DNA of 50,778 nucleotides from Tepidimonas alkaliphilus (GTDB taxonomy: Bacteria; Pseudomonadota; Gammaproteobacteria; Burkholderiales; Burkholderiaceae_C), in NCBI RefSeq assembly GCF_007556595.1, contig NZ_VJNB01000015.1:1-50778 (forward strand), given 5' to 3'. The notes beneath the pieces are model-generated. The model had not been told where the DNA came from, did no database searches, and saw only the letters and a list, made by a program, of their open reading frames with translations. Both the position numbers and the translations under genes were made by a program. Within the stretch, counting starts at the first letter, position 1. The number at the start of each line of letters is the position of its first letter. This document shows positions 27,254 through 40,864 of this stretch, piece after piece.

Positions 27254-28195
27254 ATGCGCAATGCCACTTTCCGCCAGCTGCGCATCTTCGTCGAAGTGGC
27301 GCGGCACCTGAGCTTTTCGCGCGCGGCTGAGGCGCTGCACCTGACCCCACCGGCGGTCACCATGCAGATCAAGGAGCTGGAGGGCCACGTCGGGCTGCCG
27401 CTGTTTGAGCGCCAGGGGCGTCGTGTGTCGCTGACCACCGCCGGCGAATACATGCTGGTCTATGCGCGCAAGGTGCTGGCCACGCTGAAGGACGCCGAGG
27501 ACACCGCAGCGCGCCTCAAGCGCCTGGAGGCTGGGCAGCTCACCATCGGCATGGTCGGCTCGGCGCAATATTTTTTGCCGGCGTTGCTGGCGGCGTTTCA
27601 GCAAGAACACCGCGGGGTGGACATCAAGCTGGTCACCGGCAACCGCGAACAGTTGCTGCGCTTGCTGCAAGCCAATGAAGTGGATGCCGCGGTGATGGGC
27701 CGCCCACCGTCGGAACTGGCGGTGCGCGCCGAGCCGTTCGCCGCGCACCCGCACGTGTTCGTCGCGCCGCTGGATCATCCGTTGCTGCGCATCGGCCACC
27801 CGGCGCCGGAGGCGCTGGCGCCCTACCCGTTCATCGTGCGCGAGCGCGGCTCCGGCACGCGCGCGCTGCTGGAACAGTTTGCGCAGCGCCACGGGCTGGA
27901 GCTGCGCATTGCGATGGAGCTGCCGGACAACGAGGCCATCAAGCAGGCCGTGATGGCGGGGCTGGGGCTGGGCTTCGTGTCGCTGCACGCCCTCAAGCTG
28001 GAGCTGCAGCATGGCCTGATCGCGCGGCTGGACGTGGAAGGCACGCCGCTGGTGCGCGCCTGGCACGTGGTGCACACGCTGGCCAAGCTGCTGTCGCCCG
28101 CGGCCGAGGCATTTCGCTACTTCGTGCTGGAGCAGGGCGAGGCGTTTTTGGCCGAGCGCTACGGGGCGCTGCTGCCGCTGGAGCCCACGGGCTGA
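27254..28195 (+). CDS. cbbR: LysR-type regulator of the cbb operon
   Basis: The 313-residue protein has an N-terminal winged helix (FRQLRIFVEVARHLSFSRAA, LHLTPPAVTMQIKELE) and a LysR substrate-binding domain (about 90-300) with GSAQYFLPALL, as in CbbR. CbbR activates carbon-fixation genes in response to Calvin-cycle metabolites. It is divergent from cbbY across a short intergenic region that holds a LysR palindrome and the cbb promoter. Confidence 0.94.
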   Translation: MRNATFRQLRIFVEVARHLSFSRAAEALHLTPPAVTMQIKELEGHVGLPLFERQGRRVSLTTAGEYMLVYARKVLATLKDAEDTAARLKRLEAGQLTIGMVGSAQYFLPALLAAFQQEHRGVDIKLVTGNREQLLRLLQANEVDAAVMGRPPSELAVRAEPFAAHPHVFVAPLDHPLLRIGHPAPEALAPYPFIVRERGSGTRALLEQFAQRHGLELRIAMELPDNEAIKQAVMAGLGLGFVSLHALKLELQHGLIARLDVEGTPLVRAWHVVHTLAKLLSPAAEAFRYFVLEQGEAFLAERYGALLPLEPTG

Positions 28196-28262
28196 GGCCG
28201 CCTCACCGCCCAGTCCGTGGTCAGGCCACGCAGCGCTGCTTGCCCCGGTTGCGTATCGGGGA

Positions 28263-29240
28263 CTAGCGCAGGTGGCGGCGTTGGCGCCAGCGGCGCACCT
28301 CAGCAGCCACATCGGCTGCCTGCCGCAGCATGACCACCGGCGGCGGCAGCGCGCGCGCATGGCGCGCCGCGCCGGCACCGCCCACCCAGAGCTCCACGCG
28401 GGCAGGCAAGCGTTGCCGCAGTTGCGTGACGGGCTCGACCACCTCGCGGCGACGCAGGCGCGCGCTGCAGCTCAGCGCCACTACGTCCACTTGCAGGCGC
28501 TGCGCCGCTTCCGCGATGTCGGCCAGCGGCGTGGAAACCCCCAGCGACCAGCGGTCGCAGCCCTCCAGCGCGAAAAAACATTCGGCCATCAGCAAACCGA
28601 GCTGGTGCAGCTCCCCAGGCGGGGTGGTCAGCAGCACGCGCGGCGAACCCGAAGCGCCGGCTGCAGCCGCTTCCACTTGCGCGATCGCCTCGCGCAGCAC
28701 GGTTTGCACCGCCTCGGTGAAACTGTGCTCTTGATACACGCTGAGCTCGCCCTGCGCCCACGCCTGACCGACGGCCACGCATAGCGGCGCCACCAAGGTC
28801 TCGATGACGGCGGCCAGCCCCTGTTCGCGCACCGCAGCCCGCAGCGCCGCGCGCAGGCGCGGGGTCTGGTTCTGGCGCAACTGCATCAGCCACGGGGTGA
28901 GATCCGCGGGTGCATCGCTCGGCTGGCGGCGCAAGCGGGCCGTGGAGGGCGTGGGGTTCATCCCCTGCTGCGCCCGCGCCTGCAAAGCCGCCAGCGGCAA
29001 GCCGACCACCTGGTGAGGCCGATGTCCGGTGTCCAGCAAGCGCCGGATCAGCCGCAGCTGAGCCAGCTGGTGTTCGTCATACAGCCGCTCGCCGCGCGCG
29101 TCGCGCGCTGGGCTGGGAAAGCCGTAACGGCGCTCCCACACGCGCAGCGTGTTCTTGCCAATGCCGGTTTCACGTTCGACGTCGGCAATCGTCCAATGAG
29201 CCGACCCATGGGACGCCTGGGCGGCGGGGTCTTCCTGCAT
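28263..29240 (-). CDS. litR: LitR/CarH-type MerR regulator with B12-binding photosensory domain
   Basis: The 325-residue protein has a MerR helix-turn-helix (about 15-85, TIADVERETGIGKNTLRVWE, then RRYGFPSPARD), a four-helix cap (about 115-190) and a Rossmann cobalamin-binding domain (about 200-320). Known photoreceptor residues are present: W161-x9-E171-H172 of the cap that covers adenosylcobalamin, and ExHxxG at 210-215 with His212 as likely lower cobalt ligand. LitR/CarH binds DNA in the dark and is released when light breaks the Co-C bond. The residue after the Trp is Ala162, where Thermus CarH has the His that binds cobalt after illumination. It is divergent from the photolyase and lipid operon, its likely target. 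Confidence 0.9.
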   Translation of the reverse strand: MQEDPAAQASHGSAHWTIADVERETGIGKNTLRVWERRYGFPSPARDARGERLYDEHQLAQLRLIRRLLDTGHRPHQVVGLPLAALQARAQQGMNPTPSTARLRRQPSDAPADLTPWLMQLRQNQTPRLRAALRAAVREQGLAAVIETLVAPLCVAVGQAWAQGELSVYQEHSFTEAVQTVLREAIAQVEAAAAGASGSPRVLLTTPPGELHQLGLLMAECFFALEGCDRWSLGVSTPLADIAEAAQRLQVDVVALSCSARLRRREVVEPVTQLRQRLPARVELWVGGAGAARHARALPPPVVMLRQAADVAAEVRRWRQRRHLR

Positions 29241-29280
29241 AAAAAAGGGGGAACCTCAACGATGCAAAAAACGTCCGAGC

Positions 29281-29308
29281 AGCATACAATGGTTTTGTCT
29301 AGGACAAA
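29281..29308. promoter_or_regulatory. Candidate LitR operator and overlapping divergent promoter elements
   Basis: A perfect palindrome TTTGTC-TAG-GACAAA lies at 29294-29308, the only strong one between litR and the operon. On the minus strand it covers the -35 area of a possible litR promoter with TATGCT at 29286-29281. On the plus strand TACAAT at 29285-29290 could be a -10, placing the palindrome on the start of the operon transcript. Dark repression of both directions is an inference. Confidence 0.55.
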
Positions 29309-29343
29309 CACGGTGGTTTTTGACATCACCGGCCGGAGCGCGT

Positions 29344-30648
29344 ATGAACTTTGCGGTTGTGGGATCCGGCATCGCAGGCTTGGCTGCCGCTTATCGGCTC
29401 AGCTCCTGGGCCCATGTCACGCTGTTGGAAGCCGGTGAGCACTTTGGCGGCCATACGCGCACCATCGATGTGACGCTGCCCGGCCAGGACGGTCAGCTCG
29501 TGACGCACGGCGTGGACACCGGCTTTTTGGTGTTCAACCATCGCACCTACCCGGGGCTGACGGCGCTGCTGGAAGAGCTGCGCGTGCCCGCCGCGCCCTC
29601 GACCATGTCGTTTTCGGTGCAGCTGCCCGGCCCCGACGGCCAGCCCGCGCTGGAATGGGGTGGCGCCTCGTTGGCCACGGTGTTTGCGCAACGCCGCAAC
29701 CTCGTGCGACCGCGCTTTTGGGCCATGTTGGCCGATTTGCTGCGCTTCAACCGACTGTGCACCACGCTGGCGCGGCGCGGCGACGATGCGGCCTTGGCCG
29801 AGCCTTTAGGGGCTTTTTTGGATCGTCACGGCTTTGGCCGCGCGCTGCGCGATTGGTATCTGCTGCCGATGCTGGGCTGCATTTGGAGCTGCCCGACGGA
29901 GCAGATGCTGGCGTTTCCCGTCGGCACGATGATTCGCTTCTGTCACAACCACGGACTGCTGCAGGTTTACGGACGCCCGACATGGTTCACCATCCCCGGC
30001 GGAGCTCGGCAGTATGTGCAGCGCATCGTGGCGCGGCTGGCGGATGCGCGGCTGCGCACGCCGGTGCGGCGCATCGAACGCGACCCAGCCGGCGTGACCG
30101 TGATCACCGACGCAGGGCGAGCGCGTTTCGACGCGGTGGTGCTGGCCACCCACAGCGATCAGGCGTTGGCGCTGCTGGCGCAGCCCACCGATCAGGAGCG
30201 GGCCTTGCTTGGGGCGATCCGCTACCAACGCAACCGGGCGGTGCTGCACACCGACACTTCGGTGATGCCAAAGCGGCGATCGGTGTGGTCGGCCTGGAAT
30301 TACGAGCGCGCCGCCGACGCCGGCACCGAAGCGGCGCGGGTGTGCCTGCACTACTGGCTCAACGCGCTGCAACCGTTGCCGTTTCGCACGCCGTTGATCG
30401 AAACGCTGAACCCCGTCCGTCCGATCGATCCGGCCAGCGTCATCGACGAGGTTGAATTTGAACATCCCGTGTTCGACCATGCCGCGGTGGCGGCCCAGCG
30501 CCAAATCGCGGCCTTGCAGGGGCGTCAACGCACCTGGTTCGCGGGGGCGTGGCTGGGATACGGCTTTCACGAGGATGGCCTGCGCGCCGGCGATGCGGCC
30601 GCGCAGGCCATCGAAAAGGCATGGAGGGGCTGGCGTGCAGCTGCGTGA
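29344..30648 (+). CDS. FAD-dependent amine-oxidase-like oxidoreductase of the light operon
   Basis: The 434-residue protein begins MNFAVVGSGIAGLAAAYRLS with the dinucleotide motif GxGxxG at residues 7-12, then FGGHTRT and a C-terminal FAGAWLGYGFHEDGLRAG that closes the FAD site. It belongs to the COG2907 type of NAD/FAD-binding proteins, related in fold to phytoene desaturases and amine oxidases. Such genes stand beside DUF1365 and cfa-like genes in many photo-oxidative stress operons, and oxidation of a membrane fatty acid is a plausible role. GGAG at 29334-29337 supports the ATG at 29344. It is the first gene behind the litR palindrome. Confidence 0.87.
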   Translation: MNFAVVGSGIAGLAAAYRLSSWAHVTLLEAGEHFGGHTRTIDVTLPGQDGQLVTHGVDTGFLVFNHRTYPGLTALLEELRVPAAPSTMSFSVQLPGPDGQPALEWGGASLATVFAQRRNLVRPRFWAMLADLLRFNRLCTTLARRGDDAALAEPLGAFLDRHGFGRALRDWYLLPMLGCIWSCPTEQMLAFPVGTMIRFCHNHGLLQVYGRPTWFTIPGGARQYVQRIVARLADARLRTPVRRIERDPAGVTVITDAGRARFDAVVLATHSDQALALLAQPTDQERALLGAIRYQRNRAVLHTDTSVMPKRRSVWSAWNYERAADAGTEAARVCLHYWLNALQPLPFRTPLIETLNPVRPIDPASVIDEVEFEHPVFDHAAVAAQRQIAALQGRQRTWFAGAWLGYGFHEDGLRAGDAAAQAIEKAWRGWRAAA

Positions 30649-31498
30649 GTCTGCGCCGCTCGCGCACGCGCCGACGGCTGCCGTGCCCTGGGGCGACGAC
30701 CGCATCTGGATTGGCGAGGGCATGGTGCGCCACCACCGGCTGCGCCCGCGCGCGCACGGCTTCGAGCACCGCACGTGGTTCGCGCTGCTGCCGATGCACG
30801 CGCTGCCGCAGGCCGCGGCGGCAAGCGGTCTGGCCGTGAACCGCCGCGGCGCGATCGCGTTCTTCGACGCCGACCACGGCGACGGCCGCGGCCCCGCCGC
30901 CGGCGGCGCGCTGGCGTGGCTGCGCGCCCTGCTGGCCGCGCACGGGGTGCGCGACGCCGACGGGCCGGTGTGGCTGCACACCTACCTGCGTGTGCTCGGC
31001 TACGCGTTCAAGCCGGTCAGCTTCTGGTACTGCCACCGCGCCGACGGCACGCTGCGCGCCATCGTCGCCGAGGTCAACAACACCTTCGGCGAGCGCCACT
31101 GCTACGTGCTGGATCGTCCGGCCTGGGGCGCCACGCTGCACGCGCCGAAGGCGTTTCACGTCTCGCCGTTCTGCCGCGTGGAGGGCGGCTACGCCTTCCG
31201 CTTCCTGCACGCGCGGGCCGGCGAGCAGCCGCGCACGGTGGTGCGCATCGACTACGCCGACCAGGCCGGCGCACTGCTGCGCACCAGCGTCAGCGGCGCG
31301 CTGCGCCCCGCCGAACCTGGCGACTGGCCGCGGCTGCTGTGGCGCCACCGCTGGCACAGCGCGGCGGTGATCGCGCGCATCCACTGGCACGCGCTGCGCC
31401 TGTGGCTCAAGGGCGTGCCGGTGCACGCCAAGCCGCCCGCCCCGGCGCTGTGGGTGACCCGCCAGAGCCCGCTCAACCCTACTGGAGCCGTCCGATGA
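30635..31498 (+). CDS. DUF1365 family protein
   Basis: The 287-residue protein carries the family hallmarks HTYLRVLGYAFKPVSFWYCH, VNNTFGERHCYVL and KAFHVSPFCRVEGGY. No enzymatic activity is established. The GTG at 30635 is chosen as start because GGAGGGG (30623-30629) stands 5 nt ahead; the gene then overlaps the FAD protein by 14 nt. Its stop overlaps the next ATG (ATGA). DUF1365, the FAD protein and the methyltransferase occur together so regularly that they probably act in one lipid-modifying pathway. Confidence 0.88.
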   Translation: MQLRESAPLAHAPTAAVPWGDDRIWIGEGMVRHHRLRPRAHGFEHRTWFALLPMHALPQAAAASGLAVNRRGAIAFFDADHGDGRGPAAGGALAWLRALLAAHGVRDADGPVWLHTYLRVLGYAFKPVSFWYCHRADGTLRAIVAEVNNTFGERHCYVLDRPAWGATLHAPKAFHVSPFCRVEGGYAFRFLHARAGEQPRTVVRIDYADQAGALLRTSVSGALRPAEPGDWPRLLWRHRWHSAAVIARIHWHALRLWLKGVPVHAKPPAPALWVTRQSPLNPTGAVR

Positions 31499-32751
31499 GC
31501 CTGCTGTCCGCCCCTCCACTGCCGCCCGGCGGCGATGCCACCGTCTGGCAACTGGCGCTGCGCCAGGCCCCCGCGGCCGGACGCAGCGTGCTGCGGCTGC
31601 TGCGCCAGATGCGCCACGGCCAGCTGGAGCTGCGCACGCCGCACGGTCTGACGCTGCGCTTCGGCGCGGCGCACGCCCCGGCCGCGCTGCACGCGCGGCT
31701 GGAACTGCACGACTGGCGCGTGGCCGCCGCCGCGCTGCGCCGCGGCGACATCGGCTTTGCCGAGGGCTACCTTGACGGTCTCTGGAGCACGCCGGATCTG
31801 GCGGCGCTGCTGCGCGTGATGCTGGCCAACCGGCGCGAGATCGATGCGGCCATCCACGGCCACTGGGCCGGGCGGCTGCTGTACCGGCTGCGCCACCGGC
31901 TGCGCCGCAACAGCCGCGCCGGCAGCCGGCGCAACATCCACGCCCACTACGACCTCGGCAACGGCTTCTACCGCCTGTGGCTGGACGACACGATGACCTA
32001 CTCGTCGGCATGGTTCGGCGGCGACTTTGGCCAGACGCTGGAGCAGGCGCAGCGCGCCAAGATGCGCCGCGCGCTGCGGCAGGCCGGCGTGACCGAAGGG
32101 GCGCGGGTGCTGGAGATCGGCTGCGGCTGGGGGGCGCTGGCCGAGATGGCAGCGCGCGAGTTCGGCGCGCGCGTGGTCGGCGTGACGCTGTCCACCGAGC
32201 AGCTGGCGCACGGCATGCGGCGGCTGGCGCACGCGGGCCTGAGCGAGCGCGTCGAGCTGCGGCTGCAGGACTACCGCGACATCGCCGACGGGCCGTTCGA
32301 TGCGATCGTCTCGATCGAGATGATCGAGGCCGTCGGGCAGGCCTACTGGCCGGCCTACTTCGACGCCGTGCGCCGCCTGCTGCGCCCGGGCGGCCGGGCC
32401 TGCATCCAGGCCATCGTCATCCGCGACGAGTTGTTCGAGCGCTACCTGCGCGGCACCGATTTCATCCAGCAGTATGTTTTTCCGGGTGGTTGCCTGCTCA
32501 GCCGCGGCGAGATCCGCCGCCAGGCGGCGCGCGCGGGCCTGCAGGTGCGCGACGAGCTGGCCTTCGGGGCCGACTACGCCGAGACGCTGCGGCGCTGGCG
32601 GCGCGCCTTCCTCGCGCAGCGTGAGGCCGTGCGGGCGCAGGGGTTCGACGAGCGCTTCGTGCGGCTATGGACGTTCTACCTGGCCTACTGCGAGGCCGGC
32701 TTCGACGCCGGGGACATCGATGTGGTGCAGGTCACGCTCGAGCGCGCGTGA
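31495..32751 (+). CDS. Cyclopropane-fatty-acid-synthase-like SAM methyltransferase
   Basis: The 418-residue protein has an N-terminal cap region (about 1-140), NIHAHYDLGNGFYRLWLDD, the SAM site VLEIGCGWG at 205-213 and YVFPGGCLLS, whose Cys matches the Cys of cyclopropane synthases. Members add a methyl or methylene group across a double bond of phospholipid acyl chains. In light-stress operons a methylated or furan-type fatty acid is a possible product. It starts in ATGA overlap with DUF1365 and overlaps the next gene by 32 nt. Confidence 0.92.
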   Translation: MSLLSAPPLPPGGDATVWQLALRQAPAAGRSVLRLLRQMRHGQLELRTPHGLTLRFGAAHAPAALHARLELHDWRVAAAALRRGDIGFAEGYLDGLWSTPDLAALLRVMLANRREIDAAIHGHWAGRLLYRLRHRLRRNSRAGSRRNIHAHYDLGNGFYRLWLDDTMTYSSAWFGGDFGQTLEQAQRAKMRRALRQAGVTEGARVLEIGCGWGALAEMAAREFGARVVGVTLSTEQLAHGMRRLAHAGLSERVELRLQDYRDIADGPFDAIVSIEMIEAVGQAYWPAYFDAVRRLLRPGGRACIQAIVIRDELFERYLRGTDFIQQYVFPGGCLLSRGEIRRQAARAGLQVRDELAFGADYAETLRRWRRAFLAQREAVRAQGFDERFVRLWTFYLAYCEAGFDAGDIDVVQVTLERA

Positions 32752-33337
32752 GCGGCGCGCGCTGCTGCACACCGCGGCGGCGCTGGCGCTGACGGCGGCC
32801 ACCCCGGCGGTCGTGGCGCGCGTGGTGGCCGGCGAGACGCAGGGCCTCGGCCCGGCGCTGCTGCCCGGGGCGGCGGTGGTAGGGCGCGGCACGCTGCGTT
32901 TTCTGGGGTTGGCGGTCTATCACGCCACGCTGTGGGCCGCGCCCGGCTGGCAGCCTGCCCAGCTCGGCCAGACGCCGCTGGTGCTGGAGCTGCACTACTT
33001 GCGCTCATTCCGGGGCCGGGACATCGCGCTGCGCTCGCTGGAGGAGATGCGCCGCGCCGGGCCGCTGGAGCCGGCCGAAGAGGCGCGCTGGCTGGCCGCG
33101 ATGCAGCGGCTGTTCCCGGACGTGGCCGACGGCGACCGCATCGCCGGCTTGTGGGATCCGGCGCACGGGGCGCGCTTCGTGCTCGCGCGGGCGGGAGGTG
33201 CGCCGCAGCCGCTGGGCGAGCTGGCAGAGCCGCGCTTTGCCGAGCGCTTCTTCGGCATCTGGCTGGCGCCGACCACGTCGCAGCCGGCGCTGCGCGCGGC
33301 GCTGCTCGGACTTTCCGGCCCCACGGCGGCACGATGA
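32720..33337 (+). CDS. Chalcone-isomerase-like exported protein
   Basis: The 205-residue protein has an N-terminal basic segment with twin Arg, RERRALLHTAAALALTAATP, which resembles an export signal. It also has the bacterial chalcone-isomerase-like motif LVLELHYLRSFRGRDIALRS followed by LEEMRRAG. Bacterial members bind fatty acids or are of unknown role rather than acting on flavonoids. The only in-frame start that retains the signal segment is the ATG at 32720, inside the end of the methyltransferase gene. The stop overlaps the next ATG. Confidence 0.75.
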   Translation: MWCRSRSSARERRALLHTAAALALTAATPAVVARVVAGETQGLGPALLPGAAVVGRGTLRFLGLAVYHATLWAAPGWQPAQLGQTPLVLELHYLRSFRGRDIALRSLEEMRRAGPLEPAEEARWLAAMQRLFPDVADGDRIAGLWDPAHGARFVLARAGGAPQPLGELAEPRFAERFFGIWLAPTTSQPALRAALLGLSGPTAAR

Positions 33338-34650
33338 ACGGCGCGGCCCTGCCCCCCGCCGACGGCCTGCGCTACGGGCTGCTGGGGTTGCCGCTGGCGT
33401 TCGCGGCGCTGCCGCTTTACGTGCACGTGCCGCACGTCTATGCCCAGCTCGGGGTGCCGCTGGCGTGGCTGGGCGCTGTGCTGCTGGCCGCCCGCGCGTT
33501 CGACGCCGTCACCGACCCGTGGCTTGGACGAGCGTGGGACCGCGCCTTCGCGCGCGGCGGCTCGGCGGCGGTGTTGAGGCGCGTGGCGGGGCTGGCCGCG
33601 CTGCTGGCGCTGGCGATGGCGGCGCTGCTGCGCCCGCCGGCGCTGGAGCTGCCCGTGCTGGCGGCCTGGGCGCTCGCGGGGCTGCTGATCACGACGCTGG
33701 CCTACAGCGCGCTGGCGATCGTGCATCAGAGCTGGGCCGCGCGGCTGGGCGGCGACACCGCGCGGCAGGCGCGGCTGGCCGGCTGGCGCGAGGGGCTGGC
33801 GCTGGCCGGCGTGGTGCTGGCCTCGCTGTTGCCGGGGCTGATCGGCTGGTCCGCGACGCTGGCGCTGCTGGCCGCGCTGCTGGCGCTGGGCACGGCGGCG
33901 CTGGCGCGCGCGCCGCGACCTCCAGCCACATCGGTGCCGGAATCGACGACGGCTCCGCAGGCCGGTTGGGACCATCCATGGCGGCAGCCGGCATTTCGGC
34001 GCCTGGCGGCGGTGTTCGTCGTCAGCGGCCTGGCCAGCGCCATCCCGGCCACGCTGGCGCTGTTCTTCATCGCCGACCGGCTGCAGGCCACCGCCTGGCA
34101 GGGGCCGCTGCTGGCGCTGTATTTCCTCGCCGCGGCGGCGGGGCTGCCGCTGTGGCTGCGGCTGGTGCGCCGCCTCGGCGCCGTGCGCGCCTGGGGGCTC
34201 GCGATGCTGCTGGCGGTGGCCAGCTTTGCCTGGACCGCCACGCTCGGCGCCGGCGACGTGGCGGCGTTTGCGGTCATCTGCGCGCTGTCGGGCCTGGCGC
34301 TTGGCGCCGACCTGGCGCTGCCGCCGGCGCTGCTGGCCGGCGTCGTGGCCGCCGCCGGCGAGCGTGGCCGCCACGACGGCGCCTACTTCGGCTGGTGGAG
34401 CCTGCTGGCCAAGGCCAACCTCGCGCTGGCCGCGGGGCTGGCGCTGCCGCTGCTGCAGCGGCTCGGCTACCAGCCGGGCGGCGCCGACCCCGTCGGCCTG
34501 CAGGCGCTCACCCTCGCCTACGCCGTGCTGCCGTGCGCGCTCAAGCTCCTGGCCGCGGCGCTGCTGGCCACGCTGCTGCGCCGCGAGGCGCTTGCGCCCG
34601 CCGCCGGCACCGCGGCGGCCACCCCCGCCTGTGGAGTCCATCCGTCATGA
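33334..34650 (+). CDS. MFS transporter (MelB/GPH-like)
   Basis: The 438-residue protein is almost entirely hydrophobic, with about 12 membrane helices and the family motif AFDAVTDPWLGRAWDRAF near residues 50-67, typical of the MFS_2 glycoside-pentoside-hexuronide:cation group. The substrate is unknown. Homologues in light-response clusters have been noted beside cfa-like genes, so a lipid or pigment precursor rather than a sugar could be moved. It is joined on both sides by ATGA overlaps. Confidence 0.85.
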   Translation: MNGAALPPADGLRYGLLGLPLAFAALPLYVHVPHVYAQLGVPLAWLGAVLLAARAFDAVTDPWLGRAWDRAFARGGSAAVLRRVAGLAALLALAMAALLRPPALELPVLAAWALAGLLITTLAYSALAIVHQSWAARLGGDTARQARLAGWREGLALAGVVLASLLPGLIGWSATLALLAALLALGTAALARAPRPPATSVPESTTAPQAGWDHPWRQPAFRRLAAVFVVSGLASAIPATLALFFIADRLQATAWQGPLLALYFLAAAAGLPLWLRLVRRLGAVRAWGLAMLLAVASFAWTATLGAGDVAAFAVICALSGLALGADLALPPALLAGVVAAAGERGRHDGAYFGWWSLLAKANLALAAGLALPLLQRLGYQPGGADPVGLQALTLAYAVLPCALKLLAAALLATLLRREALAPAAGTAAATPACGVHPS

Positions 34651-35234
34651 ACGCCACCCCCACCGCTTGCTCCGATCTCCCCAACCGGCCACACCACGGA
34701 CGACGCGCCGCCGCGCTGGGCCTGGCGGCCTTTGCGCTGGCGCTGGCCGGCTGCGCCACGCCGACGCCGCAGCAGTACGCCGCCGAGCGCCCCGCGCTGG
34801 ACCTGAAGACCTACTTCAACGGACGCCTCGTCGCGCACGGCATGTTCCAGGACCGCTTCGGCCACGTGCGGCGGCGCTTCGTCGTCGAGATGACCGCGCA
34901 GTGGCAAGGGCGCGACGGCGTGCTGGACGAGCGCTTTACCTACAGCGACGGCGCCACCGAGCGGCGCGTCTGGCGCCTGACCGACCTCGGCGACGGCCGC
35001 TACGAGGGCCGCGCCGACGACGTCGTCGGCGCCGCGCAGGGGGTGGCCGCCGGCAACGCGCTGAACTGGCGTTACACGCTGGCCCTGCCGGTGGACGGGC
35101 GGGTGTGGGAGGTGCAGTTCGACGACTGGATGTTCCTGATCGACGAGCGCACGATGCTCAACCGCGCCACGATGTCCAAGTGGGGCATCCGGCTCGGCGA
35201 GGTGACGCTGTCGTTCACGCGGCTGGATCCATGA
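34647..35234 (+). CDS. DUF3833 family lipoprotein
   Basis: The 195-residue protein has a signal peptide with lipobox L-A-G-C ending at Cys36, so it is lipid-anchored. The remainder matches the DUF3833 pattern: LKTYFNGRLVAHGMFQDRFG, LDERFTYSDG, WEVQFDDWMFLIDE and RATMSKWGIRLGEVTLSF. The fold is probably lipocalin-like, so it could carry a lipid between membranes, but no function is proven. It is in ATGA overlap with both neighbours. Confidence 0.87.
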   Translation: MNATPTACSDLPNRPHHGRRAAALGLAAFALALAGCATPTPQQYAAERPALDLKTYFNGRLVAHGMFQDRFGHVRRRFVVEMTAQWQGRDGVLDERFTYSDGATERRVWRLTDLGDGRYEGRADDVVGAAQGVAAGNALNWRYTLALPVDGRVWEVQFDDWMFLIDERTMLNRATMSKWGIRLGEVTLSFTRLDP

Positions 35235-36001
35235 GCGCCAACCCTCCGCTGCGCGACTGGCAGGGACAGCGCGTCTGGATCGTCGGCGCCTCCAGCGGCA
35301 TCGGCCGCGCGGTGGCCGAGGCGCTGCATGCGCGCGGCGCCCGCGTCATCGCCTCCGCCCGGCAGGCCGAGGCGCTGGCGGCCTGGGCCGCCGCCGCGCC
35401 GCGGCGGCAGGCGCTGCCGCTGGATGTGACCGACCGCGACGCGGTGGCCGCCGCGGCGGCGCGCCTGTGGGCCGAAGGGCCGGTGGACGTCGTGCTGCAC
35501 GCCGCGGCGCATTACCAGCCGCTGCGCGCCACGGCGCTGGACCTCGACGAGCTGCTGCGCCACCAGCGCGTCAACGTCGAAGGCGCGCTGCACGTGGTCG
35601 GCGCGGCGGTGCCGCGGCTGCTGGCGCAGGGCCACGGACACCTGAGCCTGATCGCCAGCGTGGCCGGCTGGCGCGGCCTGCCGCAGGCGCTGGCCTACGG
35701 GCCGACCAAGGCAGCGCTGATCCACCTGGCCGAAATCCTCTACCTCGACCTGCGCCCGCGCGGCCTCGGCGTCAGCGTCGTCAACCCCGGGTTCGTGGCC
35801 ACGCCGCTGACGGCGCGCAACACCTTTCGCATGCCGGCGCTGCTCACCCCCGAGCAGGCTGCGCAGCGCATGCTGGACGGCTGGGCGCGCGGCGCGTTCG
35901 ACATCCATTTTCCGAAGCGCTTCACGCTCGCGCTGCGGCTGTTGCGCTGCCTGCCGTACCGGCTTTACTTCCCGCTGGTGCGCCGCGCCACCGGCCTGTG
36001 A
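35231..36001 (+). CDS. Short-chain dehydrogenase/reductase
   Basis: The 256-residue SDR has the cofactor motif GASSGIG near residues 19-25, NVEG, and the catalytic Tyr-Gly-Pro-Thr-Lys (YxxxK). Ser in SLIASVAGW completes the triad. A hydrophobic C-terminal part (RLLRCLPYRLYFPLV) suggests membrane contact. It probably reduces a keto or oxidises a hydroxy group on the product of this operon. The start overlaps the DUF3833 stop. Confidence 0.88.
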   Translation: MSANPPLRDWQGQRVWIVGASSGIGRAVAEALHARGARVIASARQAEALAAWAAAAPRRQALPLDVTDRDAVAAAAARLWAEGPVDVVLHAAAHYQPLRATALDLDELLRHQRVNVEGALHVVGAAVPRLLAQGHGHLSLIASVAGWRGLPQALAYGPTKAALIHLAEILYLDLRPRGLGVSVVNPGFVATPLTARNTFRMPALLTPEQAAQRMLDGWARGAFDIHFPKRFTLALRLLRCLPYRLYFPLVRRATGL

Positions 36002-36013
36002 ACCCGCCCCGCT

Positions 36014-36472
36014 ATGACGTCCGAGCCCCGCATCCCGCCCGACCCGACCGCGCGCGCCGCCGCCGTGTTCGAGCGGCTCAGCGCCGACCGCCTCGACGCG
36101 CTGGACGCCCTCTACGCGCCGGATGCGCGCTTCAAGGACCCATTCCACGAGGTGCAGGGGCGCGCGGCGATCCGCGCGATCTTCGTGCGCATGTACGCGC
36201 AGCTCGATGAGCCGCGCTTCGTGGTGCACGAGCGGCTCGGCGACGCCACGCAGGGCTTCGTCACCTGGACGCTCGTGTTCCGCTGGCGCGGGCAGCGGCA
36301 GGAACGGCGCATCCGCGGCGCCACGCACTTGCGCTTCGACGCCGACGGGCGCATCAGCGAACACCGCGACTACTGGGACGCCGCCGAGGAGCTCTACGGC
36401 CAGCTGCCGCTGCTGGGCACGCTGATGCGCTGGCTGGCCGCGCGCGTGGCCGGCGGCGCGCACCGGGGGTGA
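36014..36472 (+). CDS. SnoaL-like / NTF2-fold protein
   Basis: The 152-residue protein has the pattern of the SnoaL-like polyketide-cyclase superfamily: LDALYAPDARFKDPFHEVQG, then RAAIRAIFVRMY, followed by FDADGRISEHRDYWD. The cone-shaped NTF2 fold binds small hydrophobic molecules and can isomerise or cyclise them. In this operon it may act on the same lipid as the SDR. It lies 12 nt behind the SDR and 9 nt before the photolyase. Confidence 0.8.
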   Translation: MTSEPRIPPDPTARAAAVFERLSADRLDALDALYAPDARFKDPFHEVQGRAAIRAIFVRMYAQLDEPRFVVHERLGDATQGFVTWTLVFRWRGQRQERRIRGATHLRFDADGRISEHRDYWDAAEELYGQLPLLGTLMRWLAARVAGGAHRG

Positions 36473-36481
36473 AACACCGGC

Positions 36482-38173
36482 ATGAGCGAGGTGCAGCTGG
36501 TCTGGTTCAAGCGCGACCTGCGCGTGCACGACCACGCGGCGCTGGCGGCCGCCGCGGCGCGCGGGCCGGTGCTGGCGCTCTACATCGTCGAGCCCGGGCT
36601 GTGGCGCCAGCCCGACGCCGCCGCGCAGCACTGGGGCTTCATCCGCGAAAGCCTGCTGGAGCTGGACGCGGCGCTGGCCGCCACCGGCCAGCCGCACGCC
36701 GCGCTGCACGTGGCCGTCGGCGAAGCGGTGGCGGTGCTGGCGGCGCTGCACCGCCGCGCGGGCCTTGCGGCGATCCACGCGCACGAGGAAACCGGCAACG
36801 GCTGGACGTTCGCGCGCGACCGCGCCGTGCGGCGCTGGGCGCGCGCACACGGGGTGACGCTGCACGAGGTGCCGGCGTTCGGCGTCGTGCGCGGCCTGCG
36901 CGATCGCGACCAGTGGCTGGCCGCGCGCGAGCGGCTGATGCGCGCGCCGCAGGCCCCGTGGCCGCCGCCGCGGCTGACGTTCGCGGCATGGCCGTGGGCG
37001 GCGCCGCCCGGCATCGGGCCGCTGGCCTGGTGGCTCGGCGACGACAGCGTGCTGCGCCCCGGCCCGTGGCCTGACGCCGCGGCGCTGGGCCTGGATCCAT
37101 GGGAGCCGCCGCAGCGCCAGCGCGGCGGGCGCACCCGCGCTGAGGCTGTGCTGCACGGCTTTCTGCAGCGGCGCGCGGCGCGCTACCGCGGCGGCATCTC
37201 ATCGCCGCTGAGCGCCCCGGGCGCCTGCTCGCGCCTGTCGCCGTATTTGGCCTACGGGGTGCTGAGCCTGCGCGAGGTCGTGCAGGCCACCGAGGCGCGG
37301 CTGCAGGCGCTGGCCGACCGCCGCGGCCCCGAGCATGCCGAGGCCCCGCGGCTGCGCGCCGGCCTGCGGGCGTTGGCCAGCCGGCTCTACTGGCACTGCC
37401 ACTTCATCCAGAAGCTGGAAAGCGAGCCGCAGCTCGAGTGGCGCAACCTGCACCGCGGCTACGATGGCCTGCGCGAAGCCGAGTGGGACGAGGCACGCTT
37501 TGCCGCGCTGCGCGAGGGCCGCACCGGCTGGCCGATGGTGGACGCCTGCGTAGCGATGCTGCGCGCCCACGGCTGGCTGAACTTTCGCATGCGCTCGATG
37601 CTGATGTCGGTGGCCGCCTACCCGCTGTGGCTGCACTGGCGCGAGGTCGGCCTGTGGCTGCCGCGCCTGTTCCTCGACTACGAACCCGGCATCCACTGGC
37701 CGCAGGTGCAGATGCAGTCCGGCACCACCGGCATCAACGCCACGCGCGTTTACAACCCCGTCAAGCAGGCGCTCGACCACGACCCGCACGGCACGTTCGT
37801 GCGCACGTGGTGCCCGGCGCTGCAGCGCGTGCCGGATGTCTGGCTGTTTGAGCCGTGGCGCATGCCGGCCGCCGTGCAGCAGGCGTGCGGCGTGCGCGTC
37901 GGCGCCGACTGGCCGCAGCCTCCGGTGGAGCTGGAGGCCGCCCTGCGCACCGCCAAGGCGCGCCTGCACGCCTGGCGCCAACGCCCCGAGATGCACGCCG
38001 AGGCGCGGATGGTGGCGCAGCGGCACGGCTCGCGCCGCGGCATGCCGGGGGCCTTGGCGCGCGACCCGAACACCGGGCTGGAGCGCTGCACAGCACCGCC
38101 CCGCGCCGTGCGCCGGTCGGCCCCGCGCGCGTCGTCGCCGGGCGTGCCCGAACAGCTCGGCTTCGACTGGTGA
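36482..38173 (+). CDS. Deoxyribodipyrimidine photolyase / cryptochrome family protein
   Basis: The 563-residue protein has the N-terminal antenna domain ([18 protein letters not shown]) and the FAD domain ([20 protein letters not shown], then [15 protein letters not shown] and [20 protein letters not shown]). It uses blue light to split pyrimidine dimers, or may sense light. The FAD pocket differs from the Escherichia coli PhrB sequence (GWQWAASTGTDA there), so it is a separate branch often found in LitR clusters. The C-terminal tail of about 60 residues is low in complexity. It is followed 8 nt later by DUF2256. Confidence 0.88.
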
Positions 38174-38181
38174 GCCCCGCC

Positions 38182-38340
38182 ATGCACCGCAAGCCCTTCC
38201 TGCCGACCAAGACCTGCCCGGTGTGTGGCCGCCCGTTCGCGTGGCGGCGCAAGTGGGCGCGCGACTGGGAACGCGTCGTCTATTGCTCCGAGCGCTGCCG
38301 CCGCCAGCGCTCTGCCGCGCGCAAGGAGTCCGACGCATGA
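38182..38340 (+). CDS. DUF2256 zinc-ribbon-like small protein
   Basis: The 52-residue basic protein [20 protein letters not shown]... has Cys12, Cys15, Cys35 and Cys39 (C-x2-C-x19-C-x3-C), a likely zinc site, and a stretch of Trp and Arg between them. DUF2256 genes are nearly always found next to iron-sulfur photolyases, but their role is unknown. The ATG overlaps nothing upstream; the TGA overlaps the ATG of the next gene in ATGA, so the small protein and the photolyase are made together. Confidence 0.88.
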
Positions 38341-39914
38341 ATGGCACCCATCTTGCCGCGCCAACCGCCGGGGCAGCCAGCGTGACCGCGCCGACGCTGC
38401 GGCTGATCCTCGGCGACCAGCTCGACCTCGACCATCCGTGGCTGCGCGAGCCGCGCGCCGACGTGCTGTACGTCATGATGGAGGTGCGCAGCGAGACCGA
38501 CTACGCCCGCCACCACGCGCAGAAGGTGCTGGCGATCTTCGCCGCCATGCGCTCGTTCGCCAACGCGCTGCGCCGGCGCGGCCACCGCGTGCGCTACATC
38601 CCGCTGGATCACCCGCACAACCGGCAGGACGTGGTGGCCAACCTGCAGGCGCTGGCGCAGGCGCACGGTGCGCAGGCGGTGGAATACCAGCAGCCCGACG
38701 AATGGCGGCTGGATGCCGCGCTGCGCCGTTGGGCGCAGCAGGCACCGCTGCCGGTGCGGGCGGTGGAGACGCGGCACTTCCTGCTGCCGCGCGACGGCGT
38801 GACGCGTCGGCTCGGCGCGCGCCGGCGCTGGGTCATGGAGCACCTCTACCGCGCGCTGCGCCGCGAACACGGCGTGCTGATGAACGGCGAGCAGCCCGCC
38901 GGCGGACGCTGGAACTTCGACGCCGACAACCGCCAGCCCTGGCGCGGCCAGCCGCCCGAGCCGCCCGATCCCCGCCCGCGGCACGACGTGCGCGCGCTGT
39001 GGGCGATGGTGCGGCAGGCCGGGGTGGCCACGGTTGGCGAGCCCGCCGCCGCGGCGCTGCCGTGGCCGCTGACGCGCGCCGAGGCGCTCGCGCAGCTGGA
39101 CGCCTTTGTCGAACAGGCGCTGCCGCACTTCGGCCCCTACCAGGACGCGCTGGCCGAGGGGCGCCCGCGCTTGTTTCACTCGCAGCTGTCGTTCGCGCTC
39201 AACGTCAAGCTGCTGCACCCGCTGGAGGTGATCTGCCGCGCCGAGGACGCCTGGCGCGCCGGCTGCGCCCCGCTGGCCAGCGTCGAAGGCTTCATCCGCC
39301 AGATCCTCGGCTGGCGCGAATACGTGCGCGGCATCTACTGGGCGCACATGCCGGGCTACACCGAACGCAACGCGCTGGCCCACACCCGGCCGCTGCCGCG
39401 CTGGTACTGGGACGGCGACACCGATCTGGCCTGCCTGCGCGCCGCCATCGGCCAGACGCTGCGCGACGCCTACGCCCACCACATCCAGCGCCTGATGGTC
39501 ACCGGCAACTTCGCGCTGATCGCCGGCTGCGACCCGGCCGAGGTGCACCGCTGGTATTTGGGGGTTTACATCGACGCCTTCGAGTGGGTGGAGGCGCCCA
39601 ACACGCTGGGCATGAGCCAGTGGGCCGACGGCGGCCTGATGGCCACCAAGCCCTACGCCGCCAGCGCCGCCTACCTGCAGCGCATGGGCGACCACTGCCG
39701 CGGCTGCCGCTACGACCCCCGGCGCCGCACCGGGGCCGATGCCTGCCCGTTCAACGCGCTCTACTGGGACTTCATCGCCCGGCACGAAGCGCGCTTCGCC
39801 ACCCACCCGCGCATGGCGATGATGGTGCGCCAGTGGCGCAAGCTGCCCGACGACGAGCGGCGCGCGGTGCGCCAAACGGCGCAAGCTGCGCTCCAGCTCC
39901 TCGAGCTGGATTAA
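38337..39914 (+). CDS. Iron-sulfur bacterial cryptochrome/photolyase (FeS-BCP, CryB/PhrB type)
   Basis: The 525-residue protein starts with [15 protein letters not shown] and contains [16 protein letters not shown] and [12 protein letters not shown], the FeS-BCP signatures. Cys366, Cys454, Cys457 and Cys470 have spacings of 88, 3 and 13, the same as the [4Fe-4S] ligands of Rhodobacter CryB and Agrobacterium PhrB. Such enzymes repair (6-4) photoproducts with FAD and a lumazine antenna. Its start is in ATGA overlap with DUF2256. Its last 4 bases overlap the convergent rbgA gene. It is the last gene of the operon. Confidence 0.93.
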
Positions 39915-40864
39915 GCAACGTCAGAGCGAGGCTCCAACGCCGACCGGGCGGCTCGGCGGCGCGCGCGTTGCGCTTGGCGCTCGGCCTGCGCTTGACGCGC
40001 TTGCGCCATCCATGCCTCAAACGCCTCGGGCGTCTCCAACGTCAAGCGCCCCAGCGCGCCCGCGCGAAAATCCGCCAGCACCACCTCGGCGGCTTTGTGA
40101 CCATCCACCACGCCGCCGGGTCGCAGCGCGCCGCGACGTCGCCCAATCGCCTCCAGCAAGGCGCGAGCTGGCCACTCACGCACCTGCAGCTCGCTCACCC
40201 AGGCCCGGTAACGTTGTTGCAGGCGTTCGGGATGGGTTTGTTGCATCCACGCCAGCAGCGCCAGCGCCACCTCCTCCTCATCCCAGGCGTTACGCCCGAC
40301 GGCGCCGCTGGCGGCCAGCCGCCAGCCGCTTTCTGGCGACAGGATTTTGGGCCAGAGCAAGCCTGGGGTGTCGAACAGATACACGTCATCGGCCAGGGCC
40401 ACTCGTTGCTCGTGGCGCGTCACCCCAGGCTCGTCCGCAGCCTTGGCCACCTTGCGTCCGATCAGCGTATTGAGCAGCGTCGATTTGCCCACATTGGGAA
40501 TGCCGGCGATCAGCACCCGCAGCGGCTTGGCCATGCCGCGGCGATGCGGCGCCAAGGAGCGGCACGCTCGCACCAGCAGCTGCGCTGGCCCGGGCGTGTG
40601 GGCATGCAGCGCCAGCGCGCCAGTGCCATCTTGCGCCCGGTAGCGCGCCAGCCAGCGCGCGGTCAGCTCTGGCTCGGCCAAATCTTCTTTGTTGAGCACC
40701 TTTAGCACCGGCTTGCCCGCCGTCAGCTCCGCCAGCAACGGGTTGGCGCTGGAGCCGGGCAAGCGTGCGTCGAGCAGCTCGATGACCACATCGATGGTTT
40801 GGAGCCGCTCGCGCAGCGCCCGGCGCGTGGCGTGCATGTGGCCAGGGAACCATTGAATATCCAT
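39911..40864 (-). CDS. rbgA: Ribosome biogenesis GTPase, RbgA/YlqF type
   Basis: The 317-residue protein begins MDIQWFPGHMHATRRALRER and has circularly permuted GTPase motifs: NKED (G4) at 58-61, GIPNVGKST (G1) at 121-129 and DTPG (G3) at 165-168. This is the YlqF/RbgA family, which helps late assembly of the large ribosomal subunit. The C-terminal tail is rich in Arg, Ala and Gln. It is 21 nt behind the HAD gene on the same strand and converges with the photolyase gene. Confidence 0.9.
   Translation of the reverse strand: MDIQWFPGHMHATRRALRERLQTIDVVIELLDARLPGSSANPLLAELTAGKPVLKVLNKEDLAEPELTARWLARYRAQDGTGALALHAHTPGPAQLLVRACRSLAPHRRGMAKPLRVLIAGIPNVGKSTLLNTLIGRKVAKAADEPGVTRHEQRVALADDVYLFDTPGLLWPKILSPESGWRLAASGAVGRNAWDEEEVALALLAWMQQTHPERLQQRYRAWVSELQVREWPARALLEAIGRRRGALRPGGVVDGHKAAEVVLADFRAGALGRLTLETPEAFEAWMAQARQAQAERQAQRARRRAARSALEPRSDVA

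Follow-up and report, generated by a model that had tools for sequence, protein, structure and literature searches.

A putative B12-type LitR light switch over a predicted furan-lipid and (6-4) photoproduct repair operon in Tepidimonas alkaliphilus

What do the eleven packed genes that face a regulator gene of the MerR/B12 type in Tepidimonas alkaliphilus make, and could light control them? The locus lies on contig NZ_VJNB01000015.1 (assembly GCF_007556595.1), analysed over 50,778 nucleotides (the window; contig C7 of a genome of 2.46 Mb whose tmRNA tag, ANDERFALAA, and overall gene content probably point to the Burkholderiales), where litR (28263-29240, minus strand, 325 aa) is divergent from eleven genes on the plus strand that span 29344-39914 (Table 1). 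We consider it fairly probable that LitR is a B12-dependent light switch over an operon for furan-lipid synthesis and (6-4) photoproduct repair. Gene content and order, the clade membership of the UfaM methylase, the adenosylcobalamin (AdoCbl) signature of LitR and the conservation of a palindrome together with LitR were computed directly; from them we infer the light response, the repression and the lipid product.

In Rhodobacter sphaeroides and Rhodopseudomonas palustris the enzymes UfaD, UfaO (a DUF1365 protein) and UfaM act on the cis-vaccenate of phospholipids to give a methylated furan fatty acid, the ring oxygen of which comes from O2 (PMC7380195). The window holds one homologue of each, contiguous and in the order D-O-M, which is also the order implied by the locus tags RPA2571-2570-2569 of R. 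palustris and that of a Rhodopseudomonas pseudopalustris locus (L137). A scan of genome contigs with an alignment of alphaproteobacterial UfaO gave 587 confirmed matches, of which the best 80 loci were kept; UfaD directly precedes UfaO in 77 of these best 80, and the full D-O-M order occurs in 68. In a tree of 33 methylases the window's UfaM groups with 30 other UfaO-linked ones, a group that excludes both E. coli Cfa and the C6 paralogue of this genome (support 100/99, branch length 1.16; both are long-branched). Since it does not group with E. coli Cfa, 31495-32751 was ruled out as a true cyclopropane fatty acid synthase. On account of the three homologues, their contiguous order and the UfaM clade, we read 29344-32751 as a furan-fatty-acid pathway, with 9M5-FuFA in phospholipids as the expected product; such membrane lipids should scavenge oxidants formed in the light. 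The original prediction, made from the sequence alone, had spoken of a lipid-modification operon, as the joint presence of the three homologues bears out, and had left the product of the set comprising the flavin adenine dinucleotide (FAD) protein, DUF1365, the short-chain dehydrogenase/reductase (SDR), SnoaL and the chalcone-isomerase-like protein unassigned; the lipid part of that product can now be assigned through homology to UfaD, UfaO and UfaM.

The arrangement recurs in relatives. Among 20 loci of the same family, picked from 36 UfaO-positive genomes, the order UfaD-UfaO-UfaM, chalcone-isomerase-like, MFS, DUF3833, SDR, SnoaL is kept in 19, the sole exception (L037, genome G010) having only a UfaO fragment. 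In a survey of 150 family genomes (LitR matches at E 2.1e-28 or better) LitR was found in 63 and UfaO in 111, with both in 57 (Fisher p 7e-5, relatedness ignored) and LitR alone in 6. In 50 of the 57 genomes with both, LitR is encoded divergently, no more than 3.4 kb upstream of the operon; in the remaining seven it is on another contig (six genomes) or 12 kb away (one). The gene order kept in 19 of 20 loci and the position of LitR in 50 of 57 genomes indicate that the arrangement is more than chance. It is conceivable, if unlikely, that the operon has another product: the core enzymes would yield a furan or methyl-diene chain, and the SDR, SnoaL, chalcone-isomerase-like, DUF3833 and MFS proteins would alter it further, transport it or employ it as a signal. 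These five genes have no assigned step and yet accompany UfaD-UfaO-UfaM in the same 19 loci, and in R. sphaeroides the three other genes of the operon are each dispensable for the furan lipid. On the other hand, nothing ties the five directly to acyl-chain chemistry, and neither R. sphaeroides nor R. palustris needs more than three genes to make the furan lipid (PMC7380195).

The predicted switch itself begins with the regulator. LitR matches PF13411 (MerR_1), PF02607 (B12-binding_2) and PF02310 (B12-binding), all over the Pfam cut-offs, and aligns with Thermus CarH over residues 12-292. Light-responsive B12 domains carry the signature GxxW, EH, GxxH and GxxxP (PMC11796333), which is complete in the window (G158/W161, E171/H172, G209/H212 and G234/P238). 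In an alignment of 45 LitR rows (40 distinct loci; five rows are second copies of the same locus) the Trp, the Glu-His pair and the cobalt-binding His are each kept in 44, and the LitR of L043 is degenerate, with W, EH and H lost. A homologue of the CobA/CobO/BtuR adenosyltransferase is present in the genome. LitR thus appears to fit the class of AdoCbl light sensors, as the original prediction had it on grounds that the domains and signature residues now support, and it would release DNA upon illumination. LitR of class II or III, which lack the B12 domain, was ruled out, as the protein retains two intact B12 domains and an intact signature.

A candidate operator lies between litR and ufaD, where the palindrome TTTGTCTAGGACAAA (TTTGTC-N3-GACAAA) occupies 29294-29308. 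It is the only exact site in the genome; with up to two mismatches there are 27 sites, fewer than the 34 of a reversed control, so that only the exact site was used and further LitR sites in this genome were rejected. The two sites with one mismatch lie between lepB-like and era-like open reading frames and inside a tatC-like one (all named by eye). The window and 20 loci, 443 kb in all, were searched for strong sites, here meaning a match at 11 or all 12 of the set bases. Fifteen of the 16 found are in litR or between litR and the divergent operon, and the sixteenth is upstream of ufaD in L034, where litR is on another contig. A strong site occurs in all ten loci (the window included) with an intact adjacent LitR, and none was found in the eight loci without LitR nearby, in L037 or in L043. 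Second sites are found 63 bp apart in L039, L045, L050 and L051, and 21 bp apart in L041 and L048. The partner site has 10 matching bases at L039 and L048, and only 9 at L041. In the 150 family genomes the exact TTTGTCYNRGACAAA is present in 32, the reversed control in 6; it occurs in 31 of the 63 genomes with LitR versus 1 of the 87 without (Fisher p 2e-13, relatedness ignored). The family has 41 copies of the exact palindrome, and for 23 of them litR is no more than 2 kb away. Finally, a site of at least 11 matching bases was found in 19, and of at least 10 in 24, of the 25 linked LitR loci checked, and of at least 11 in 4 of 5 unlinked ones, which argues that the motif goes with LitR and not with the lipid genes. 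TTTGTC-N3-GACAAA is therefore likely to be the LitR operator, to judge from its distribution. As a sequence it is unlike the described operators of both CarH, which are tandem 11-bp direct repeats (PMC8156234), and Pseudomonas class II LitR, TGTACA-N12-TGTACA (PMC9758184), and among the 11 papers that a literature text search found to contain four letter strings of the palindrome none is a LitR paper by its title.

The same exact palindrome is found 46-260 bp upstream of an iscR-like gene (named by eye) in five family genomes (L244 in G148, L245 in G147, L247 in G031, L251 in G063 and L253 in G022); a link between LitR and Fe-S cluster supply is possible. In one of the five, G022, LitR itself is without the B12 residues.

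The repair part of the operon rests on two photolyase-family genes, the domains of which bear out the predicted linkage of such genes with the regulator. The product of 38337-39914 aligns nearly end to end with 7ykn (503.8 bits), including four Cys that we take to be the Fe-S cluster ligands, and is by this match an FeS-BCP (6-4) photolyase homologue (DPRP). In 36482-38173 both photolyase Pfam domains are over the cut-off, and no NCBIfam photolyase model passed at its own. At the positions of E. coli Phr E274, W277, N341, M345, N378 and W384, presumably the key residues of a cyclobutane pyrimidine dimer (CPD) photolyase, it has R, W, F, S, H and V, and the same five replaced residues are missing from its two aligned relatives as well. 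With five of the six replaced, it does not match a class I CPD photolyase; by its domains the product is a cryptochrome/photolyase-superfamily flavoprotein. The "photorepair" of the original prediction is thus half supported, by the last gene of the operon and not by 36482. A canonical CPD-photolyase homologue with all the Phr residues is encoded on contig C2 of the same genome. The best solved relatives of the 36482 product are plant cryptochromes (~130 bits), and it has a conserved SRLYWHC and a second conserved stretch. Lipid genes are not needed for the link between LitR and the photolyase: in L241 (4014-7015; genome G084, with no UfaO match) the neighbours of LitR and the palindrome are DUF2256, a 38337 homologue and a glutathione-peroxidase-like gene (named by eye).

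Taken together, the predicted switch would work as follows. In the dark, AdoCbl-loaded LitR would bind the palindrome and repress both litR and the divergent operon; light would break the Co-C bond, LitR would leave the DNA and the eleven genes would be expressed. UfaM would then methylate cis-vaccenoyl chains of membrane phospholipids, UfaD would desaturate the methylated chains, and UfaO would add the O2-derived oxygen that closes the methylated furan ring. The furan lipid would react with singlet oxygen, while the 38337 enzyme would repair (6-4) photoproducts. The chalcone-isomerase-like, MFS, DUF3833, SDR, SnoaL, DUF2256 and 36482 proteins may take part as well.

Several points weigh against this scheme. 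The window's UfaO is only 27-42% identical to its homologues in the named loci. UfaO occurs without a strong LitR match in 54 of the 150 family genomes, so the operon does not need LitR, and 18 of the 41 exact palindromes in the family are away from litR, which makes them further targets or chance sites. LitR scores 140.9 bits with the NCBIfam CarH model NF052513, versus a curated cut-off of 400, and is best described as a relative of CarH, not a CarH equivalog. No more than 18 of the 45 rows have the four signature elements in exact form; most of the others differ at the G of GxxH. The position that follows the signature Trp, which is His132 in Thermus thermophilus CarH (TtCarH), is Ala162 in the window, and in the aligned rows it is M, L, A, V, Q, E or T, with His in 0 of 45 (40 distinct loci). 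In illuminated TtCarH, His132 turns into the upper ligand; in one study the H132A variant remained mostly tetrameric under light, although disassembly had been reported earlier (PMC10442372). With Ala162 at this position the ligand switch of TtCarH cannot operate as such, and release of LitR would have to use another light-state coordination. These same two facts, the Ala and the behaviour of H132A, would suit a LitR that senses cobalamin status, where AdoCbl-bound LitR would repress, loss of AdoCbl would derepress the genes and light would have little direct effect. We regard this as improbable: CtMerR has Arg at the position and is still light responsive, a ligand His thus not being universal in light-responsive B12 domains (PMC11796333), 44 of 45 rows retain the Trp and Glu that contact the adenosyl group, and the regulated genes are a photo-oxidative set that includes photolyase-family members.

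Control of this kind of operon by light is already known. In the pmlR1 cluster of Pseudomonas mendocina an operon with phrB, SDR, FAD oxidoreductase and UfaM genes lies beside a class II LitR, and ufaM and phrB go up ~25-33-fold in light; there, a short LOV (light-oxygen-voltage) protein senses light and the class II LitR is held neither to bind nor to need B12 (PMC9758184). The two loci share a MerR/LitR regulator beside an operon with phr-type, SDR, FAD and UfaM genes, and differ in that P. mendocina has a class II LitR, a LOV sensor and TGTACA-N12-TGTACA, and the window an intact B12 signature and TTTGTC-N3-GACAAA. That LitR here, too, depends on a partner protein, for instance a short LOV protein, with a vestigial B12 domain, as the control of the P. 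mendocina operon (PMC9758184) and the family member L043 without B12-contacting residues might suggest, is very improbable, since all but one of the 45 rows retain Trp, Glu-His and the cobalt His.

The Ufa genes of R. sphaeroides (RSP1087-1091 and RSP2144) and R. palustris (RPA2569-2571) comprise the same three enzymes, contiguous in R. palustris (PMC7380195). Furan-fatty-acid genes belong to the core sigmaE-ChrR regulon (PMC6852236), which controls those of R. sphaeroides, with ufaM elsewhere; in the window they are beside a B12-type LitR, and the operon adds chalcone-isomerase-like, MFS, DUF3833, SDR, SnoaL and photolyase-family genes. Control by sigmaE-ChrR was ruled out for the window, as PF12973 (the ChrR-type cupin) has no match in its genome or in any of the 10 genus relatives. 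Of the 36 genomes searched, 13 do have one. An ad hoc pattern of the extracytoplasmic-function type gave 3 upstream matches in 21 loci. CarH and class I LitR (T. thermophilus, Myxococcus xanthus, Bacillus megaterium) have the same MerR helix-turn-helix, two B12 domains and four-element signature, but LitR of the window is without the His132 equivalent, has a palindrome in place of the tandem 11-bp direct repeats (PMC8156234), and would target furan-lipid and photolyase-family genes where CarH targets carotenoid genes. In Vibrio cholerae, too, the blue-light response includes a cfa-like gene and a MerR-like regulator adjacent to phr; the cited passages place the regulator under an oxidant signal and give no role for B12 (PMC5241685). 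Among the matches listed in open-licence literature, B12-type LitR control of such an operon was not found, and LitR together with ufaM only in PMC9758184. What is new here is the combination with a B12-type LitR, the parts each being of a known kind.

We see about an even chance that the family harbours a large clade of AdoCbl photoreceptors that do without the His132 switch, regarded as critical in CarH, and act from a palindromic operator in direct control of furan-fatty-acid synthesis. If so, this would be a third way of tying the furan lipid to light, besides sigmaE-ChrR and LOV with class II LitR, and it would join cobalamin photoreceptors, investigated chiefly for carotenoid genes, and furan fatty acids, investigated chiefly for singlet-oxygen control. 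The interest of the locus rests on the missing His132, the palindromic operator and this union of B12 photoreception with furan lipids. Published results differ on whether CarH needs His132 for light switching, and such a clade is a natural test of this; the compact operon lets the roles of the five co-inherited genes be probed by lipid analysis.

Table 1. Predicted features of the litR locus, in window coordinates
Feature	Position	Strand	Basis
LitR: MerR HTH, B12-binding_2 and B12-binding domains	28263..29240	-	Pfam; alignment to Thermus CarH; signature residues
Palindrome TTTGTCTAGGACAAA, probable (predicted) LitR operator	29294..29308	.	Conserved between litR and divergent operon in relatives
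UfaD homologue, FAD-dependent (Amino_oxidase / NAD_binding_8)	29344..30648	+	Pfam; before UfaO in 77/80 loci
UfaO homologue, DUF1365	30635..31498	+	PF07103, 246.8 bits; UfaO is a DUF1365 protein (PMC7380195)
UfaM homologue, S-adenosylmethionine-dependent fatty acyl methylase	31495..32751	+	CMAS, 286 bits; tree with UfaO-linked UfaMs
Chalcone-isomerase-like protein (Chalcone_3)	32720..33337	+	PF16036, 27.5 bits vs cut-off 27 (shorter start)
MFS_2 transporter	33334..34650	+	PF13347, 154.8 bits
DUF3833 protein	34647..35234	+	PF12915, 236.5 bits
SDR oxidoreductase	35231..36001	+	PF00106, 119.6 bits
SnoaL_2 / NTF2-like protein	36014..36472	+	PF12680, 75.3 bits
Cryptochrome/photolyase-superfamily flavoprotein without key CPD-photolyase residues	36482..38173	+	PF00875 and PF03441 over cut-off
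DUF2256 small protein	38182..38340	+	PF10013, 75.1 bits
FeS-BCP (6-4) photolyase homologue (DPRP)	38337..39914	+	PF04244, 243.5 bits; 503.8 bits to 7ykn

Domains were called with Pfam models at their cut-offs, and together with the coordinates of the open reading frames they confirm the predicted layout of a MerR-B12 gene divergent from eleven tightly packed genes, including all five of the ATGA overlaps claimed for it (31495, 33334, 34647, 35231 and 38337). The preferred start of the DUF1365 gene is GTG 30635, 14 bp inside the FAD gene, and that of the chalcone-isomerase-like gene ATG 32720; the remaining intergenic gaps are 8-12 bp. The last gene is convergent with a GTPase gene on the opposite strand (39911-40864), with an overlap of 4 bp. 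In 28150-40050 no consensus sigma-70 promoter was found, and terminator-like matches are at the level of shuffled sequence (4 found, 3.6 expected), which makes a single transcript of the eleven genes likely.

The predicted UfaO structure is mostly beta (predicted local distance difference test score 89.4), and no match in the PDB has E under 0.001; the best matches, lipocalin-like and fatty-acid-binding-protein-like barrels (E 3.1e-3, TM 0.30), were rejected as too weak to assign a fold or cofactor. Over 66 sequences D80, R119, VSPF 176-179 and H250 are invariant, and H33, H41, H81 and H155 are at least 90% conserved. The conserved residues might form a metal site.

Comparison of the window genome with the close genus relative G002 (28200-29350 against locus L033) revealed an unusually divergent litR, with 57-60% protein identity versus 83-98% for the other genes compared, and a tree path of 1.17 for LitR versus 0.085 for six enzymes (92% identity). 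At four-fold sites litR differs by 35% and ufaD by 38%, as against 8-24% for the 12 other genes compared. The approximately unbiased test did not reject sisterhood (p 0.38). Either allele exchange between lineages or fast evolution could account for this.

Homologues of 36482 directly follow SnoaL in four genus loci (L033-L036) and in L255 (genome G170), and 38337 homologues are found at L033, L034, L035 and L255 and not at L036. In the genus relatives G001, G003 and G004, which have LitR and the palindrome, the contig breaks off near the start of ufaD, so that the missing UfaO there is at least partly a matter of assembly. In G005 (L267, 1498-2278) LitR residues 209-324 abut residues 369-496 of a 38337 homologue, as if one deletion had taken regulator and operon together, though in this draft genome misassembly is possible. 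Among the ten genus relatives G009 is without both LitR and UfaO, and G010 without LitR. A secreted glutathione-peroxidase-like gene (named by eye) precedes ufaD in L038, L043, L046 and L051, with or without LitR.

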